From Pseudomonadota bacterium (GTDB lineage: Bacteria > Desulfobacterota > Desulfobulbia > Desulfobulbales > Desulfurivibrionaceae), in contig JAHJRQ010000015.1 of assembly GCA_018830485.1 (NCBI GenBank), positions 248,001 through 312,000 of the forward strand: a DNA stretch of 64,000 bases. Direction: 5' to 3'. Shown in pieces: positions 36,091 to 64,000 of the stretch; within the stretch, counting starts at the first letter, position 1; each line of letters starts with the position of its first letter. The notes beneath the pieces were generated by a model. It made no database searches. It saw nothing but the letters and a program-made list of their open reading frames with translations, and was not told where the DNA came from. The position numbers and the translations under genes were made by a program.

Positions 36091-36575
36091 AAACCCTCTG
36101 GACGCCCTGGCGGATGGAATACATCGAAGGCAAGACAGGCAGGGATTCGGGCTGCATCTTCTGTGCGGCCCCGGAACAGACTCATTCGGCCCAGGATCTG
36201 ATCCTGCACCGCAACGGAGCCCTGGTGGTAATGATGAACCGTTTCCCCTATGCCAACGGCCATCTGCTGGTGGCCCCGGCCCACCATCTCGCGGATCTCG
36301 GCGATCTCAGCGAAGAGGAAAATGGAGCCATCGCCGCCATGCTGGCCCGTTGCACCACCATTCTGCGCAAGACACTCCAGCCGGACGGCTTCAATATCGG
36401 CCTGAACCTGGGCGAGGTGGCGGGGGCCGGGATCGCCGGCCACCTGCACTGGCACATCGTCCCCCGCTGGCATGGGGACCACAACTACATGACCGTGCTG
36501 GCCGAGGTCCGCACCATTCCGGAACATATCGAGAAGACCTTCGCGCGGCTGCTGCCGGAGTTCGAAAACAGGTAA
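36087..36575 (+). CDS. HIT-family nucleotidyl hydrolase or phosphorylase
   Basis: 162 aa. CIFCAAP (zinc-binding CxxC near 30), MNRFPYANGHLLVAPAHH, and the histidine triad GHLHWHIVPRW (about 120), with YMTVLAEVR after. The CxxC plus WHxVPRW type is typical of the Ap4A phosphorylase-like HIT branch. Nucleoside-polyphosphate substrate is inferred. Forms the last gene of the yggT-to-HIT operon (4-bp overlap with the phosphodiesterase gene). Confidence 0.92.
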   Translation: MKTLWTPWRMEYIEGKTGRDSGCIFCAAPEQTHSAQDLILHRNGALVVMMNRFPYANGHLLVAPAHHLADLGDLSEEENGAIAAMLARCTTILRKTLQPDGFNIGLNLGEVAGAGIAGHLHWHIVPRWHGDHNYMTVLAEVRTIPEHIEKTFARLLPEFENR

Positions 36576-55537: not shown

Positions 55538-56830
55538 TTATTGTCGGTTCTTTTTACTCTGTCCTGCATCCATTATCAAGACCAAGCTATTCAGCCCAAG
55601 CAGGTGACGGCGCAAAAGATCAAGCGCCGTCTGGCTGGCCTGGGCCTGTACCTGGCCGCGCTCCCCGAAAAAACGAAAGAGGAAGGTCTGGGTTTTTTCC
55701 GGGCCGGCCAGGCCGAAATAGACCGTGCCCACCGGCTTGTCTTCGCTGCCGCCTCCCGGTCCGGCAATACCCGTTACGGAAAGGGCATGGTCAGAGGCGG
55801 TTACCCGCCGCATCCCCTCGGCCATGGCCCGGGCACAGTCGGCGCTGACCGCGCCGGACCGCAGGAGAATCTCCCGGTTGACCCCGAGCAGCCGCTCCTT
55901 CAGGGCATCGCTGTATGCCACCACCCCGCCGAGGAAATACCCGGAACTCCCGGCTATTTTGGTCAGGGTATGGCCGATGAGGCCACCTGTGCAGGATTCC
56001 GCCACGGCCAGTGTCTGACCGCGGTCTCCCAGCAACCTCCCCACCACGGACTCCAGGGTGTCAGCCCCGGAACCGTAGAAGCAATCACCAAGAGACTCCG
56101 ACATCTTCCCATCGTATTTTTGCATCGCCGTCTCGGCCTCCCGGCCTGTCGCGCCGGTGACGGTGAGGCTGACATGCACCTCGGGAAACACGGGATAATA
56201 GCCGATCCGCACCCGCGGGTCGCGGCCTTCCAGATGGGCAAGCCGCCGGTTGATCTCGGATTCGGCCAAGCCCACCACCTTGTACACCTTCTGGCGCACC
56301 TGCCGGACCTCCTCGCCTTCCCAGACAGCAAGCCGGGTGATCACCGTTTCCAGAAGCAGATCCTCCATCTCCTGCGGCACCCCCGGCAGAAAAAAGATGG
56401 GTTTGCCGTCCTGGACCAGAAAATATCCGGCCGTCTGTGCTTCCGTATGCAGGGCGTGGGCGCCCGCCGGCAACCAGGCGAGTTTTTCCAGGGAAACCCG
56501 CTGACCGGCGGGCAGATCCTTGCCGTGGGCCTGGATCTTTTTCAGTATTTCCGGATACAAGGTGGCGGGCCGGGCAAGGGCCGAGGAGACCGCGGCATTG
56601 GTCAGATCATCGGTGGTCGGGCCCAACCCCCCGGTGACAATAACAAAATCCGCCCGCTGCAAAGCCCGTTGCAGGGTGCGGCCGATGAGTTCCGGTTCAT
56701 CCCCGATGGTGGTCATGGCCAGAATCTCATGGCCTGCGGCAAAAAGATGGCTTGCCGCAAAATAGCTGGTGGTGTTCAGCACACGCCCGGAGGTGAGCTC
56801 ATCGCCGATGGCAATTATTTCCCCAAACAT
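55538..56830 (-). CDS. cinA: CinA-like protein, nicotinamide-nucleotide amidase
   Basis: 430 aa from ATG 56830, with GAGG close upstream; a longer frame starting at 56869 lacks a ribosome site. The N-terminal MoCF-like domain (MFGEIIAIGDELTSGRVLNT, TGGLGPTTDDLTNAAV) is a pyrophosphatase-type domain. The C-terminal domain (about 270-420) has AVAESCTGGLIGHTLT with the nucleophilic Ser and GVVAYSDALKERLLGV, the NMN deamidase. Just upstream of recA, as in several bacteria. Its first 5 codons overlap the end of a truncated DUF1016 gene. Confidence 0.93.
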   Translation of the reverse strand: MFGEIIAIGDELTSGRVLNTTSYFAASHLFAAGHEILAMTTIGDEPELIGRTLQRALQRADFVIVTGGLGPTTDDLTNAAVSSALARPATLYPEILKKIQAHGKDLPAGQRVSLEKLAWLPAGAHALHTEAQTAGYFLVQDGKPIFFLPGVPQEMEDLLLETVITRLAVWEGEEVRQVRQKVYKVVGLAESEINRRLAHLEGRDPRVRIGYYPVFPEVHVSLTVTGATGREAETAMQKYDGKMSESLGDCFYGSGADTLESVVGRLLGDRGQTLAVAESCTGGLIGHTLTKIAGSSGYFLGGVVAYSDALKERLLGVNREILLRSGAVSADCARAMAEGMRRVTASDHALSVTGIAGPGGGSEDKPVGTVYFGLAGPEKTQTFLFRFFGERGQVQAQASQTALDLLRRHLLGLNSLVLIMDAGQSKKNRQ

Positions 56831-57471
56831 CCCCGCCTCATAAGAAAAGATTTTTGCCCAATATAACACGGAATGAACGCTTCATGATAGTGGTCGTTCA
56901 GTTCCAGGAAATCGAGCACATAGGGATCTTTCAGGACCATGGCCGGGGTCAGGTCGCCCTTGACGACCAGGGCTTGCAGTTCAAGGCGGATGGTCTCTTC
57001 CGGCTTTCTCGACAGGGCGGTGCGCTCGAACAGCATGGCGTCGATGCGTTCGCTCAAGACCCGGGTGGACCAACCTTCGAGCTGTGCCATCTGGGTATAG
57101 AACTCACGTTTGAGGGGATCGTCGATCCCGATCAGGGTGCGAAAATGAGTCCAGCTCAATTTTGCACTCAGTGCGTGCAAAATGTTTAGATCGCTGAAAG
57201 ACTCGGAGAAAAGCACCATGTTCGCCAAGTTCCGCTGCGTCCAACCTTTGCCATACAAGGCGGTGAGCTGTCTGGCCAGGTGAGGGATGATCTCTTTGCC
57301 GTACTCGGCGCGTTCACCTTTGAGAACCTCGGCATGTATGCGCTGTCCCACCTGCCAGTAGAGCAGGGTCAATTCGGCATTGACCGCCACCGCCGCCCGC
57401 TGCCGGGCGGAGTCGATGAGAGTTTTGATCTCATGGAACAAGGGGAGAGGTTTCGGAGGCTTGGCAATCAT
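56815..57471 (-). pseudogene. Truncated DUF1016 (YhcG-type) PDDEXK nuclease gene
   Basis: 218 aa, versus roughly 330-370 for the family. Conserved N-terminal DUF1016_N segment ALTLLYWQVGQRIHAEVLKGERAEYGKEIIPHLARQLTALYGKGWTQRNLANMVLFSESF-type sequence and LSWTHFRTLIGIDDPLKREFYTQMA are intact. The start of the C-terminal domain (YVLDFLELNDHYHE) is present but then changes to an unrelated tail that ends inside cinA. The PD-(D/E)XK nuclease is therefore lost. It is coupled to the upstream 51-aa gene (ATGA overlap). Confidence 0.85.
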
Positions 57472-57623
57472 GCGCTGGCCTCCCTGGGGATTTCGGCTTG
57501 GGCGGGTTGCCAGTTGCGGACGTCTATCTTGCCGGTGACGGCGGCGGAGATGAGAACGGGCTGGAAGCTCTTGTCCTGATACTGTTGTTTGTAGCTGCCG
57601 GAGACAAATTCTTCGAATTTCAT
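57468..57623 (-). pseudogene. Chimeric remnant: Fic-type N-terminus fused to an HsdS-type C-terminus
   Basis: 51 aa. MKFEEFVSGSYKQQYQ resembles the usual start of a Fic-family protein, while PVLISAAVTGKIDVRNWQP is the usual end of type I specificity subunits (HsdS). The junction is near residues 20-25. It looks like a recombination scar. Start at 57623, with AGATACGAT upstream; coupled to the DUF1016 remnant. Confidence 0.65.
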
Positions 57624-57638
57624 CGTATCTCCCCTTAC

Positions 57639-57915
57639 GCCACCGCGACCTGGCCGTTCATCAGTATAGGCAGGAGCCAGTCGCGGAGATGGTGAGGTGT
57701 TGGTTTTCCTGCTCAAGAACATCCTGGCGCTTGAAGATGGAATCGACCTTGTTTGTGAATCGTTCCACAACTTCAGACGCAGGCAGGCAGACTTTTACGG
57801 TCTTCAGCACCGTTCCGGAAACCTCCTTGAAGGTAGAGCCGAAAGCATACTGTAGTGATAGCCTTCAAAGATTTTTTACGGTGTAGTAAATGCGAAAATA
57901 TTGGGCTCCGCCCCC
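57639..57915 (-). pseudogene. HsdS 3' fragment, copy 1 (frameshifted)
   Basis: Nearly identical over about 250 bp to copy 2 at 59979-60271. It encodes the end of a type I specificity subunit, with the KRQDVLEQENQHL-type coiled coil and LRDWLLPxL. Relative to copy 2 it has an extra base near 57853, which breaks the frame. No upstream HsdS domain is present. Confidence 0.78.
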
Positions 57916-58065
57916 ATTTGTCCATCTTGCCGTCGGTTGGCGGATGATGTTTGATTTTAGTAATACAAATATCAAACAACCGCACTCCGAACAACACACT
58001 GTAACAGATTATAAGCATTAGATATTTTCCAAATAACCCAGACGAAACTCTTCAGGCGGCTTTGA

Positions 58066-59771
58066 TTAATCCTTTGACTCTCTTTGATAATTTTCATTTC
58101 CGATCATAGTTGATTGCCATAGAGGTTTACTCCTGGAACCACTGTTGCAAATCACCTGCTCACGTGATAATTCCGACAACAGGTTGTGGATTTTGACATT
58201 TTTCTGCTTCTCACTCATCACATCCGGTAACTTTCCGGAAAGAAGCTGGTCTATTTTTTTGCGGCTCACCGGACCATGTTCTTTAACGAGTGCGACAATT
58301 AAATCCAGATAATATCTTTTGTTGAATCCTCGTTCGAGGATATGGCGTGCCTCTTGCCCCGTCAAACGCGCCACCGGACTTGCTATGAAAAGGTTAGGAT
58401 AACGTCCTTCAACAACTCCCGCATTTTTCAATCGCCGATGGTCTTCATGGGTTACAGGCACTCGCTTCTGGATTTTATCCAGCAGAATCACCTGCCAAAG
58501 ATCCAAGTCAGATCTCTTCATCAGTAAGTTGCTATATTTCTCGTCGAGAATTTCACCGCGCACGATTACGGCGACTCGGTCCGGTTTGGATAGGTCATAG
58601 TCAGGAAGAGGAAAGAATCGTCTCATCTGGGTTTGAAACATTCGCTTGATTCCGCCACCCTGGGTGTCGATCATGTTGAGGTTTACCATGGCTTCCGCAA
58701 GAAACGGGTTACGGTAAACCTCCAGCGGCGCATCTTGTCGGATCACGGTCTCAACATCCCCCGGGATAAAACTCCCCATATTCGATAACAAAATCGAGCT
58801 CGGTGTCTCCACGACATTGATCCGCCCTCGTATAAACCGTAGTCTTGGTGGGCTATACAGTTATGCAGGCTTTCCCGGATAACCCATGGGTCATACTGTG
58901 AAGTTTCCTGAGGGAAAAGGGTGCCGCTGGGGAGGGTCCGAAGGGTCAGGTTGCGAATCCTCAGCAGTATACGATCAACTTGTAGAAGAAATGGCGGCCC
59001 GAAATGATCATAATCCAGCTCATGGTTTTGAGCATCTTTTAAGATCCAGGAAATTTTTACCACCGCCGGACTTAACAGGCTGGACGCTTCAGGCTTACCC
59101 AGCAAGACAATTGCCGTGTTGGTTATCGCGCCATGGATAGTGAGTTTCGCTTTATTCAGAAAAGTCTTGTCATCCCAAGCAGCCTGGTCATCCTGATTTT
59201 GAGGGTGTTTTATCCTGAATTGTTCCCGGGGCTTGGCAATCGCCTCCGGTTCAAGATCATCCAAAGAGGCACGTTCGCAGACCTCGGCAGACCAATCAGT
59301 CCGGCGGCTCCAGATGGCGCGCTCTTTGTCGGGATGTTTCGCAAGCTTAGTCCGGCTCGACCCAACCCGTATATATGCCGTACCATAGAAGCAGACCGGG
59401 CGGTCCCATGCCGCACCGATCTCAAAAAGGACAACTCGACCGGACGGGTGATCAAAAATATGGGTTTCAAAGCCGACATTTGGTTGCAGGCCGACACTCA
59501 GCCAGAGGAGGAGATCCTGACTGCCTTTAGCTTTCACGGCATAAGGGTCAAAGTTGGTACCGACTACGTCATGGGTGGCATCGGCAATGCCAAAAACGAG
59601 ATACCCTCGACTCTTTCCGGCGAGGCAGGCGCCATTGGAAAGTGCGGAAAAATATTCCCCAATTACCTGGGGTTCATGCCAATTTTCCTTGAATTCAAGC
59701 CATTCAGTCTCATTAGGTTCCCGACGCAGACGATCAACCAAGGATATCAACTCTGATCTATTCAGGGCCAT
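58066..59771 (-). pseudogene. AlbA/Schlafen-type ATP-binding protein, frameshifted near 58824
   Basis: Two adjacent frames make one gene. The upstream part (58743-59771) starts MALNRSELISLVDRLRREPNETEWLEFKENW, an AlbA_2 domain, and continues to ESLHNCIAHQDYGLYEG. The downstream part (58066-58812) continues with ETPSSILLSNMGSFIPGD and TQGGGIKRMFQTQMRRFF, the ATPase-like region, then a winged-helix-like C-terminus. The join reads in register if one base is restored near 58824-58827, so a 1-base deletion in a G run is likely. Such proteins often accompany type I restriction genes. If this is a sequencing error the product would be about 565 aa. Confidence 0.82.
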
Positions 59772-59976
59772 TCGCCCCTCCTACGGCTGAGATAATAAGG
59801 ATCATCATGCAAAGCCCAGATGATTGGTGCTCGCTCCTGATTTACCGCGAAATGTTCGCCCACCTGATGCAAAGTCAACACAGGCATCGGCCACGGAAGA
59901 GAATTCAACCCTTTTCAGGCGCTTCAAAATGGCATTCTTCATAGAAACTCCGGATCAATTTCACTTGTACTGTGGT

Positions 59977-60210
59977 TCACGCCACCGTGACCTGGCCGTT
60001 CTTCAGCATGGGCAAGAGCCAGTCGCGGAGTTGGGTGAGGTGTTGGTTTTCCTGCTCCAGCACATTCAGGCGCTTGAAGATGGAATCGACCGTGTTTGTA
60101 AATCGTTCCACAACGTCAGACGCAGGCAGGCAGACTTTTACGGTCTTCAGCACCGTTCCGGAAACCTCCTTGAAGGTCGAGCCGGAAGCATACTGAGTGA
60201 TAGCCTTCAA
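59977..60210 (-). pseudogene. hsdS: HsdS 3' fragment, copy 2
   Basis: 77 codons are open: ITQYASGSTFKEVSGTVLKT (end of TRD2), then VERFTNTVDSIFKRLNVLEQENQHLTQLRDWLLPMLKNGQVTVA (coiled coil and tail of HsdS). The N-terminal TRD1, spacer and most of TRD2 are missing. It cannot work alone, and no hsdM or hsdR is present in the window. Confidence 0.8.
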
Positions 60211-60271
60211 AGATTTTTTACGGTGTAGTATAATGAAGGACGAGGAGCGAAAATATTGGGCTCCGTCCCCA
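59979..60271. repeat. Direct repeat copy 2 of the 57639-57915 segment
   Basis: Both copies run from the HsdS stop to a shared ATTGGGCTCCG motif and are over 90% alike by eye, with about 15-20 extra bases in copy 2 near 60230-60250. They lie in the same orientation, 2.3 kb apart. Confidence 0.85.
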
Positions 60272-60311
60272 TTTTTTTAATTTTTTCCTACATTTTTTCC
60301 TAATTTTTTTC

Positions 60312-61286
60312 CTAAAGCTGCCATTCCTGTCGATGTAATGCCAGATACTCTTGAGCCGGCCATAAATCATGGTCCAGAGGGAGAATTGCTCCACGATCGG
60401 CGAGGGTCACAAGAAATCCAGGAACATTTGCATTGGCTGAAATCTTACGGGAAACAATCACGTTGTAGCTATTAGAAATTCCCAGCAACCCTTTATCAAA
60501 ATTCCAGTGACAGAGCTTGCAAAGAGCCATGCCGTTTCGTGCGTCGTCATTCTGGCTGGTACTCCATGGGACAATATGCGCGGCATCTACAACAGTATGT
60601 CCTTCTGGGGTAATAATTCGCACACCACACAGGGCACAGCGATGATCATAAGTGCGGACAATAAGCCGCCGAAACCCCTGATCGCGCGCAGATGCCCGAT
60701 ATTGCCCGAAAACCTCCTCGACCTTCGGTTGATGTGCTTTGTTGAAAAGTTTCTGGCTATATATGTATGCCTCCCCATTGATAGCGGCCTGGTCCGCGAG
60801 ATCCAACCTTGCCTGTTCAGAGAAACAAGAACGCAAGAGTATTTCTCGTAGAGCATTACGGTTTTCCGGTTGGATCATTAAATAATAAAGAGCTTCGTCA
60901 AGACGAGCTCCAGAGGATATCCGCCGTAACTGGTTGACACTGCTGACATTGTTGATAACAGCCTGGGTTATTTCTTTGCCTGGTACAGGGATAAGTTTCC
61001 AGAATGGCTCATTGTGCAGACGGGAAAAAGGGAAAGCGATACTGCTGGTCTGTGCCAAAGGAACTATACGCCGCCAATAGCCAGTAAAAAGATCGTTTAA
61101 TTCTACAAGATCACCGGTAACATCAAAAACAGGGGATGTGATTACTCCGCGTGCGACAAGGTCCAGCACAGCCAAGAGGAGGATGGGCTTGTGCGGGGCA
61201 CGGTTTTGGGTGGCCGCCGACCAGACTGGCCCTGGAGCTCTCCTTAATGCGCTAAAATATTCAATGTATGTATCAAGTGTGCTCAT
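60312..61286 (-). CDS. HNH endonuclease with an N-terminal domain like phosphorothioate-binding restriction enzymes
   Basis: 324 aa. N-terminal NRAPHKPILLLAVLDLVARG (about 28-47) resembles the APHKPLLLL motif of sulfur-binding restriction domains (ScoMcrA-like). The C-terminal HNH nuclease (about 205-285) shows CALCGVRI, HTVVDAAHIVPWS, NGMALCKLCHWNFDKGLL, with the catalytic His and zinc cysteines. A type IV (modification-dependent) restriction role is inferred. It overlaps the upstream HIT gene by 4 bp (ATGA), a pair worth noting. The start at 61286 is set by the overlap. Confidence 0.82.
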   Translation of the reverse strand: MSTLDTYIEYFSALRRAPGPVWSAATQNRAPHKPILLLAVLDLVARGVITSPVFDVTGDLVELNDLFTGYWRRIVPLAQTSSIAFPFSRLHNEPFWKLIPVPGKEITQAVINNVSSVNQLRRISSGARLDEALYYLMIQPENRNALREILLRSCFSEQARLDLADQAAINGEAYIYSQKLFNKAHQPKVEEVFGQYRASARDQGFRRLIVRTYDHRCALCGVRIITPEGHTVVDAAHIVPWSTSQNDDARNGMALCKLCHWNFDKGLLGISNSYNVIVSRKISANANVPGFLVTLADRGAILPLDHDLWPAQEYLALHRQEWQL

Positions 61287-61690
61287 CGACTCCAGTATAC
61301 CGCCTTCTGGGGGAAGATCCAGCGGACTCCTCCACGTGGGTCGGGCATGTCGCCCGAGAAACGCGGGATAAGATGGATGTGCAAGTGCAAAACAGTCTGA
61401 CCGGCCGCCTCGCCGTCGTTGATTCCGACATTGAATCCATCGGCCTTTTTTTCTTGAACGAGCTTTTCGCGCATTATTGTTAGAAGCGCAAACAGATCAC
61501 GCCGTTCTTCTTTCGAGACATCAAAAAAGGACGCCACATGCCTTCTTGGGACAATTAACACATGCCCTGGAGAAATCGGAAACCCGTCAAAAAATGCAAC
61601 GGCATGGTCGTTCGCCGCTACTATCCGATCTTGTACAAGGTTGCAGAACGGACATCCATCTTGACTTTCTTGCGATTTTTCCTGATCCAT
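61283..61690 (-). CDS. HIT-family protein paired with the HNH nuclease
   Basis: 135 aa. CPFCNLVQDRIVAAND (zinc CxxC near 13), DGFPISPGHVLIVPRRH, and the triad LHLHIHLIPRF (about 100). Family: HINT/HIT nucleotide hydrolases. The ribosome site is weak. The gene order HIT-HNH with translational overlap suggests they act together, perhaps as a nucleotide-processing partner in defence, but this is inference. Confidence 0.9.
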   Translation of the reverse strand: MDQEKSQESQDGCPFCNLVQDRIVAANDHAVAFFDGFPISPGHVLIVPRRHVASFFDVSKEERRDLFALLTIMREKLVQEKKADGFNVGINDGEAAGQTVLHLHIHLIPRFSGDMPDPRGGVRWIFPQKAVYWSR

Positions 61691-61772
61691 CAGCTACTTC
61701 CACATTTTTCTTCGAAGGCGAAATTAGGAAATTAGGGACACTCCCCACTTTTATACGACATGCCCACATATT

Positions 61773-62672
61773 TTATGTGGTTATTGCAATCACATTTTTA
61801 CACTTTGGGTACTGCGAGCACCCCCAAAACTCTTTCCCGGCATTCGTCCCCTGCCTGGCGGTTCTTTTCACCATAGCATTATTACATTTCGGGCAAAACG
61901 GTGATGCGCTCGTCTCTTTGTTTTGCCGGGGGGTGTCTTTAATTCCCGGCGGAGAAACATTTTTCTTTTCCAGCGGATGAGCGGCGAGGACAGCATTGAT
62001 TATCTTCACCAACTTACCGCCGTCGATGAGTGTAATATCCTTATCTTCAGCAAAGCTCACTGCGTCATCGGTAAAGACGCCGGAGGTAACGACAAATCCC
62101 CCTTTTGCATCATTGGCCACCATTACCCCAAAGAATTCCCGGACCACCTTCACCCCTACCTTAAAAGCCTTCCATTGCTTGCATTGCACCAGATACTTCT
62201 GGCCGTTCAAACTCATCTCAAGATCAATGCCGCCGTCAGCACCGCCACCACCTGTTTCTTTTACCGTGTAGCCCTTGCGCCGGAAGGACTCTCCGACAAG
62301 CATTTCGAATTCCTGCCAGGTTAACCGTTCAACTGCCTGCAAGGCGGAATTTTTCGTTTCCGTTGGTGAATGGGTGGCTATGGATTCGTAGAGTTGTTTG
62401 TTTTTTCGCTGCTTAAAAAAAGACAGCACTGCGCCGAACAGGAATGCAAGAGGCAGAAGCATTTGGGCAAAAACGGCGACCGTCACAACTAATTGGGTGA
62501 AAACAACATTGCCCATGTTACCAACAGTGGCTGGCTGGTCAACTGTAATCCCCGTGACAGCATGCAAAACTATATAAGATCCCACAGCCAGAAGCAGACA
62601 AGTTTTCCATGAGAATTTTGATGCAATTTCAACAAGATCCTCAAAACCACTTTGTCTTTTTCGCCTAGCCAT
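61773..62672 (-). CDS. Membrane-anchored Mrr-type restriction endonuclease with a zinc ribbon
   Basis: 299 aa. Two hydrophobic segments at about 22-42 (WKTCLLLAVGSYIVLHAVTG) and 62-84 (FTQLVVTVAVFAQMLLPLAF). The PD-(D/E)XK nuclease (about 115-225) has ERLTWQEFEMLVGESFRRKG, GGGADGGIDLEM (Asp), QCKQWK (Q-x-K) and a conserved GFVVTSGVFTDDA. The C-terminal topoisomerase-type zinc ribbon has CPKC and CSQYPKC near 265-290. ATG 62672 is preferred to a GTG two codons upstream, with GGGGGTGGG before it. Such proteins are linked to defence or to membrane-associated DNA processing. Confidence 0.85.
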   Translation of the reverse strand: MARRKRQSGFEDLVEIASKFSWKTCLLLAVGSYIVLHAVTGITVDQPATVGNMGNVVFTQLVVTVAVFAQMLLPLAFLFGAVLSFFKQRKNKQLYESIATHSPTETKNSALQAVERLTWQEFEMLVGESFRRKGYTVKETGGGGADGGIDLEMSLNGQKYLVQCKQWKAFKVGVKVVREFFGVMVANDAKGGFVVTSGVFTDDAVSFAEDKDITLIDGGKLVKIINAVLAAHPLEKKNVSPPGIKDTPRQNKETSASPFCPKCNNAMVKRTARQGTNAGKEFWGCSQYPKCKNVIAITT

Positions 62673-62817
62673 ACCCACCCCCAGCTTATTTTTTATCTAC
62701 ATCCCATAGCGCCGGAATATCCTCGCTGGTTTTACCCTCTATACCAATACAGAAAGAATACGGATCGCCTATCCCATTCAGGGGTTGGGGCGAAACGCCA
62801 AACCCAACTACCACTAT

Positions 62818-62905
62818 GGAAATCAGGGACATCCCCCATAGTTTTGTTTTTTGAATTTGCTCAAATAAAAACCGCCGGGAAATCAGGGGCGCTCCCCAGT
62901 AGTTT
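62818..62905. repeat. REP-like short sequences of the GGGACxxTCCCC type
   Basis: Two related short segments (AATCAGGGACATCCCCCATAG near 62820 and AATCAGGGGCGCTCCCCAGTAG near 62880) flank the Mrr and Fic genes. Related forms occur at 61729-61755 (TTAGGGACACTCCCCACTTT), 57900 and 60258 (GGGCTCCG...CCC) and 17470. Confidence 0.55.
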
Positions 62906-62919
62906 CCTGATAATTTCGT

Positions 62920-64000
62920 TTATTCTCCACGCAGGCTGTCACGCGTCAAAATCGCGTTGAGCGCCAGATTGATATAGTAGTTGGAGCGGCCGATTTTCCG
63001 TTTCTCAAGAAAACCTCCCTCGGTCAGGGCGTTAAGGTACTTGGTGGCGGTCAGCCGGGAGACCTTCAGATCGCGTTCGATGAATTCGATCTTGGTGTAA
63101 GGATGGGTAAAGAGATTATTGATGAGATCCTGGCTGTAAAACTTGTACCGGCTGCGAATACGGTGCTTGGCATCCAGCAGGGCAGCCTTGATGGCATGGA
63201 TGGTGGTGATGGTTTCCCCGGCGGTTTGCTCCACCGCGGTCAGCATGTAGGCGACCCATTCCTCCCAGGCATCCCGGTCGCGCACTGCTTGCAACAGGCG
63301 GTAATAGTCGGTTTTGGTCCGCACGATATGGCGGCTGAGGTAGAGCACCGGGATGTCCAGCAGCCCTTCTTTTACCAGGTAGAGGACATTGATGATCCGG
63401 CCGGTGCGGCCATTGCCGTCATAAAACGGATGGATGCTTTCAAACTGGAAATGGATGAGGGCCATTTTGATGAGCGGGTCGGCGTCAAAAATCGCCGGGT
63501 CGTTGATGAACCGCTCAAGGTCGCGCATCAGGGCCACGATGGTGGCGTGGCCCTGGGGCGGGGTATAGACGGTGTCGCCGGCCCCGTTTTTCAGGGCGGT
63601 TCCGGGCAGCCTGCGCATCCCGGCGCTGTTTTGTTCCAGCTCCGCCTGGATCGCCTCGATATGATTCAGGGTAATGATGCCATTCTGCCGCACGGCCTCA
63701 AAGCCGACCCGCAGGGCCTGGCGATAACGCAAAACTTCCTTGGTTGCCGGATTGGCAGGGCCTTCGGGGAAGGCATCGTCTTTGAACAGCTCGTCGTGGG
63801 TGGTGACAATGTTTTCGATGGCGGAACTGTCCTTGGCCTCCTGCATGCCCAGGGCATTGATGAGAATGCCCTGGTTGGGGATGGAAGCGGCCACTCCCTT
63901 GAGTTCGGCCAGTTTGCGACTGGCGGCAGCCATCTTTTTTAAGATGGTTGCCGTCTCGAAACGATCAGGCGGCAGGTGGTGTAAATGCGGAATCTCGATC
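62920..64000 (-). CDS. Fic-family protein, N-terminus beyond the window edge
   Basis: The frame remains open to the window end. The visible 360 residues include the N-terminal Fic_N region with the antitoxin-like inhibitory helix ALGMQEAKDSSAIENIVTTHDELF, the Fic motif HPFYDGNGRTGR (canonical HPFxDGNGRxxR, about residue 170 from the visible ATG at 63933), and a C-terminal winged-helix (FIERDLKVSRLTATKYLNALTEGG). Such Fic proteins transfer AMP to target hydroxyls, with the (S/T)xxxE(G/N) segment SSAIEN as intrinsic inhibitor. The real start is not seen. Confidence 0.93.
   Translation of the reverse strand, partial: IEIPHLHHLPPDRFETATILKKMAAASRKLAELKGVAASIPNQGILINALGMQEAKDSSAIENIVTTHDELFKDDAFPEGPANPATKEVLRYRQALRVGFEAVRQNGIITLNHIEAIQAELEQNSAGMRRLPGTALKNGAGDTVYTPPQGHATIVALMRDLERFINDPAIFDADPLIKMALIHFQFESIHPFYDGNGRTGRIINVLYLVKEGLLDIPVLYLSRHIVRTKTDYYRLLQAVRDRDAWEEWVAYMLTAVEQTAGETITTIHAIKAALLDAKHRIRSRYKFYSQDLINNLFTHPYTKIEFIERDLKVSRLTATKYLNALTEGGFLEKRKIGRSNYYINLALNAILTRDSLRGE

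Follow-up and report, generated by a model that had tools for sequence, protein, structure and literature searches.

The window, by which we mean the whole stretch of 64,000 nucleotides analysed here from a bacterium of the Desulfurivibrionaceae, carries on its minus strand two overlapping genes, of which the first encodes a HIT protein of 135 aa (61283..61690) and the second a nuclease of 324 aa (60312..61286) with an N-terminal sulfur-binding domain (SBD) and an HNH domain. An earlier note on this DNA had described a 4-bp overlap between the two, and both minus-strand ORFs indeed lie at exactly the positions it gave, with the ATGA at 61283..61286 serving as stop of the HIT frame and start of the HNH frame; together they probably form a translationally coupled two-gene defence operon. 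The G+C content of both genes is 0.49-0.51, compared with 0.61 for the nearby recA, and the genes around the pair (56815-63933) encode Fic, Mrr-like, AlbA_2, helicase-C-like and DUF1016 proteins along with hsdS remnants, surroundings that are typical of a defence island. Upstream of HIT and on the same strand, at a distance of 82 bp, is a Mrr_cat restriction endonuclease with a topoisomerase-type zinc ribbon (61773-62678, minus strand), and a SoFic-like Fic protein is likewise encoded upstream of the pair and on the same strand (62920-63999, minus strand); Fic-like proteins, recognized by eye, are also present upstream of SBD-HNH in two other genomes (G024 and G600). Two copies of the hsdS 3' end with its downstream sequence (57637-57919 and 59979-60274; pieces 89-100% identical), about 2342 bp apart, enclose the AlbA_2 and helicase-C-like ORFs, which lie in overlapping frames and are possibly one broken gene.

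The earlier note had assigned the N-terminus of the HNH protein to the sulfur-binding type from an APHKPxLLL motif, and this assignment is confirmed by sequence, by the fold of a model and by the pocket residues. The motif is found as APHKPILLL at residues 30-38, and residues 28-152 match the SBD of Hga (8h0l) at the sequence level (E 1.8e-5). An AlphaFold model of the nuclease, built from seven sequences, is reliable over the N-terminal half only (block means mostly 65-89), and for this half 8h0l ranks first in Foldseek (E 1e-5, TM by target 0.77). VIA-align of the model, which supports an SBD over approximately residues 1-168 (60783..61286), gave Z 14.4 for 8h0l (148 aligned, rmsd 3.0), 10.9 for 7ccd and 10.7 for 5zmo, with values of 10.1-10.9 for the SBDs of SprMcrA and ScoMcrA; SBD entries outrank all others, the seven best structural matches all being SBDs of Hga, SprMcrA and ScoMcrA and the best unrelated chain reaching Z 6.1. 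The sulfur pocket of ScoMcrA comprises H116, R117, Y164 and P165 (PMC6224610), and all four counterparts are there in the window protein, namely H32 and K33 (61188..61193) and F85 and P86 (61029..61034). Across an alignment of 17 homologues K33 and P86 never vary, and position 32 holds H or Y; the position of Y164, taken by F85 in the window protein, varies among SBDs, and a Y164-to-F mutant of ScoMcrA lost 65% of its binding (PMC6224610). R89 is the equivalent of ScoMcrA A168, and the A168R mutant still bound (PMC6224610).

The nuclease also matches Pfam HNH_2 (E 1.4e-12), and the alignment indicates an intact active site, with C217, C220, C256 and C259 as the four cysteines and H237, N251 and H260, in a domain of approximately residues 205-270 (60477..60674); because the structural model has low confidence over the HNH domain, the integrity of this site rests on sequence. 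The closest curated model is NCBIfam NF045808 (phosphorothioated DNA-binding restriction endonuclease), and the match to it over residues 21-321 (129.6 bits, E 1.2e-37) falls under the curated 180-bit cut-off, and we therefore name the protein SBD-HNH and keep it out of that model. With the PT-dependent type IV enzymes of SBD-HNH architecture (EcoWI, SprMcrA, the Hga SBD; NF045808), where PT stands for phosphorothioate, it shares the domain order, the SBD fold, the H-K...-P pocket, the Cys4/HNH site, the lack of a detected SRA domain and a host without DndC, but it is longer (324 aa, the model having 284 positions), scores under the cut-off, has F for Y at the lid position and is coupled to a HIT gene. 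ScoMcrA (SBD-SRA-HNH) has the SBD fold, the pocket and the HNH nuclease in common with it, and differs by the SRA domain, which was not detected in the window protein. No DndC (TIGR03183) was found in the host genome, which is 97.9% complete, as expected if a PT-dependent nuclease must spare its own DNA; dnd clusters lie near less than 3.6% of such enzymes (PMC7461809). On a Ca. Chlorohelix plasmid an SBD-HNH gene is located directly beside dndB, dndE, dndD and dndC (L070:6995-14122), where self-harm would be expected unless the specificities differ. Given the SBD fold, the pocket, the intact Cys4/H-N-H site and the host without DndC, sequence and model make it very probable that the window nuclease is of the modification-dependent kind (type IV). 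We propose that SBD-HNH would recognize phosphorothioate, or some modification like it, in DNA entering the cell and that its HNH domain would cut nearby, as in EcoWI and SprMcrA; we have considerable confidence that it is a modification-dependent DNA nuclease as predicted, and find it reasonably probable that PT is the modification in question, against which stand the NF045808 score and the F85 in place of Y164.

The HIT protein belongs to the HIT superfamily by its Pfam score (91.7 bits, cut-off 21.5, E 5e-26) and by its intact triad HLHIHL (HLHIH at residues 102-106, 61373..61387). It is minimal, Pfam finding the HIT domain alone, and carries the C-terminal motif DPRGGVRWIFPxKAxYW; this motif and the genomic coupling to nucleases set it apart from the HIT hydrolases of the HINT1, Fhit and Hit type, with which it shares the family and the HxHxHx triad. 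A second HIT match lies in the window at 36147-36485, so the HIT of the pair need not be the housekeeping one.

A neighbourhood survey, proposed in the earlier note as a check, found homologous pairs co-located: HIT lies directly upstream of SBD-HNH, its recurrent downstream partner, at seven loci in five genomes (the window; a Geobacteraceae MAG, L021; two contigs of a Trichlorobacter MAG, L024 and L025; G458; and G475, L042), and the frames overlap in all seven, by 4 or 8 bases. The whole pair is duplicated in tandem in G458 (L064, L041), with an early in-frame stop in one HNH copy. Random placement would be expected to yield about 0.002 pairs by a rough estimate, and seven loci with overlapping frames thus place the pairing beyond chance. 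About as many close homologues of SBD-HNH (58-65% identity) have no HIT beside them (three Geomonas, L022, L023 and L026; G013, G024, G019 and G600), the partner counts being per genome and some loci appearing under several ids; since HIT is missing beside about half of these homologues, it is dispensable, and the idea of HIT as a fixed partner has to be abandoned. HIT-bearing rows are dispersed in one clade of the nuclease tree and are the first to branch, so that loss or regain of HIT must have happened repeatedly. The pairing of HIT with SBD-HNH is real, yet not fixed. Just upstream of the HIT gene on one Trichlorobacter contig, residues 9-40 of a second SBD-HNH N-terminus survive as a remnant (L025:4878-4973), as if pairs duplicate and then decay.

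In G400 (L040), Polaromonas (L065) and Aromatoleum (L066), HIT proteins of the same clade (58-67% identity) also adjoin an unrelated nuclease, HNH_4, which has about 340 aa and a motif resembling ATYKFAL, and more distant HIT proteins (about 41-44% identity) come after HNH_4 in Hymenobacter (L068) and Persicobacter (L073); the combination is seen in Desulfobacterota, Betaproteobacteria and Bacteroidota and in both gene orders. A third HNH type carries a still more distant HIT fused to its C-terminus (G244, G114, G595), and in G380 HIT is fused to a short fragment that shares 46% identity with the beginning of a PLD-SF2 helicase and on which Pfam made no PLD call. The nearest relative of the window HIT (66-67% identity) in the poorly resolved HIT tree pairs with HNH_4, a hint, not well supported, that SBD-HNH and HNH_4 may have exchanged partners. 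HNH_4 might also have an SBD-like N-terminus, since ATYKFAL resembles APHKPLLL; profile comparison aligned the HNH part only, and the AlphaFold model of HNH_4 (pLDDT 46) was too poor for a meaningful fold search. SBD-HNH and HNH_4 are divergent neighbours on Nostoc plasmids (L135, L136, L141), about 640 bp apart in two of them, and there the gene downstream of SBD-HNH, with a 4-bp overlap, encodes an uncharacterized product.

These neighbourhoods bear on whether HIT is simply a hitch-hiker, a common small gene that shares these islands by coincidence and that the nuclease can do without. Such a reading agrees with the existence of HIT-less close homologues of SBD-HNH, with the ubiquity of HIT proteins and with some close HIT homologues that have no nuclease neighbour (L043, L087, L088), but we consider it improbable: the frames overlap in 7/7 pairs, a whole pair has been duplicated in tandem, HIT has paired independently with HNH_4, in either gene order, and HIT fusions occur. 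This recurrence, the joint duplication, the association with other nucleases and the fusions are the genomic evidence that HIT is likely to be a functional accessory of the nuclease and no bystander.

SBD proteins without HIT often adjoin a small class-I SAM methyltransferase (11 genomes: G102, G602, G024, G128, G605, G594, G055, G030, G625, G106 and G047), which is fused to Nudix in G594 and G055; the SBD of G106 is joined to NOV_C, not HNH, and has a 4-bp overlap with the methyltransferase, and G047 is alike. Among individual loci, a methyltransferase overlaps by 4 bp an SBD protein ending in NOV_C at L018:848-2742 and L019:667-2561, and a shorter SBD-HNH with a methyltransferase is adjoined by a PAPS-reductase-like gene at L015:181-2574. 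HNH_4 is also adjoined by a methyltransferase, in phage contigs (L097-L100), in G076, G111, G134 and G538 and in Acinetobacter and Roseomonas plasmids, and PLD-SF2 helicases come after a methyltransferase at L105 and L117. When viral contigs were searched, the HNH_4 query retrieved four contigs, 4/4 with the methyltransferase, and the SBD-HNH and HIT queries retrieved no relative. None of the sampled loci combines HIT with the methyltransferase, and neither was found among the genes, read by eye, beside the cyanobacterial, Hymenobacter swuensis and Variovorax SBD-HNH. The methyltransferase is weakly similar to the mad2 methyltransferase domain of MADS (E ~1e-13 to 1e-16), from which it differs in being stand-alone or Nudix-fused and in lying beside SBD-HNH or HNH_4; it is absent from the window.

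Owing to this alternation with the methyltransferase and to its pairing with other nucleases, HIT looks like one exchangeable accessory, drawn from a single pool that serves several nucleases. A PT-specific partnership does not fit a protein that is also found beside, or fused to, nucleases of other families and that a methyltransferase or Nudix-methyltransferase often replaces; that HIT has partners which are not known to respond to sulfur makes a role confined to PT less likely and argues for a broader modified-nucleotide or signal substrate. Aprataxin is a HIT enzyme, and the coupling of HIT to several DNA nucleases, together with its fusion to HNH, might point to an aprataxin-like protein that removes 5'-AMP or 3' adducts at failed-ligation nuclease breaks and thereby steers the repair of host or incoming DNA. 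We regard this as very improbable, because so small a HIT protein is without the zinc-finger DNA-binding domain of aprataxin and because the replacement of HIT by a methyltransferase would be left unexplained.

As for what HIT may act on, we suggest that it would hydrolyse a nucleotide released or accumulating on destruction of the modified DNA, such as (d)NMP-phosphorothioates, and that the methyltransferase or Nudix-methyltransferase in its place would provide an equivalent clean-up or signalling step. The HIT enzyme HINT1 converts dGMPS to dGMP and H2S in vitro (PMC8775712), an activity that would suit clean-up after the cutting of PT-DNA, but HINT1 is slow on the deoxy substrate (kcat ~0.02 per second) and only a distant relative of the window HIT, and by this analogy we put the proposal forward as tentative and somewhat doubtful. 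Alternatively, HIT might make or destroy a signal nucleotide (a dinucleoside polyphosphate, a nucleotide adduct or an ADP-ribose derivative) by which the activity of the nuclease is turned on or off. The HIT and Nudix families each include Ap4A hydrolases, the two occupy equivalent settings here, and a signal would account for the pairing of HIT with unrelated nucleases. A HIT protein already known as a defence accessory is ThsC, found with 2.4% of the Thoeris systems, which defend by way of signal nucleotides (PMC8565338); as in type II Thoeris, HIT would be an occasional accessory of a defence effector, but the partner in the window is a DNA nuclease, and a search of the genes of 56815-63933 for TIR (ThsB) and ThsA neighbours found none. 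Since no conserved sensor or signal-making gene lies beside the pair, target recognition is already supplied by the SBD, and many SBD-HNH genes have no such partner, we consider a signalling role unlikely.

Taken as a whole, the explanation that we favour, a coupled operon in which SBD-HNH would cut modified DNA and HIT would process a nucleotide, has in our judgement an even chance of being right. The original reading of the pair as a defence module stands with respect to the SBD, the intact HNH site and the recurring pair, and needs amending in that HIT is neither an obligate nor a PT-specific partner. SBD-HNH enzymes themselves are already known (PMC7461809, PMC6224610, PMC7470945); a published study of their neighbourhoods searched for dnd genes (PMC7461809), and a more recent survey, of the surroundings of Dnd, names HNH and HKD-SF2 nucleases but does not contain the terms HIT and Nudix (PMC10853773). 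In the literature we searched, outside which most subscription papers lie, we found no description of the exact HIT-HNH pair, in line with the earlier note, and no report in which HIT, a methyltransferase or Nudix is a partner of these nucleases, which is a weak negative. What is new here would be the accessory partners of known SBD-HNH enzymes and, possibly, a broader system behind them. We can imagine, with a confidence that stops short of even, an undescribed modular defence family in which unrelated DNA nucleases each work with one exchangeable small-molecule enzyme acting on nucleotides from the attack on modified foreign DNA. The nucleases might then include, just as tentatively, SBD-HNH, the HNH_4 'ATYKFAL' type, the HIT-fused HNH and the PLD-SF2 helicase, and the accessories might, at a like level of caution, be HIT or else a mad2-like methyltransferase, alone or together with Nudix, for clean-up or sensing of nucleotides.

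To our knowledge, PT-dependent type IV enzymes are regarded as single-gene systems. The recurrence of HIT, methyltransferase or Nudix-methyltransferase partners would imply that a step of nucleotide handling is required by, or of benefit to, many of these enzymes, and it raises the testable question of what becomes of phosphorothioate or otherwise modified nucleotides once modified DNA has been destroyed, and whether their reuse harms the host. In addition, the shared accessories offer a handle on the uncharacterized HNH_4 nucleases.
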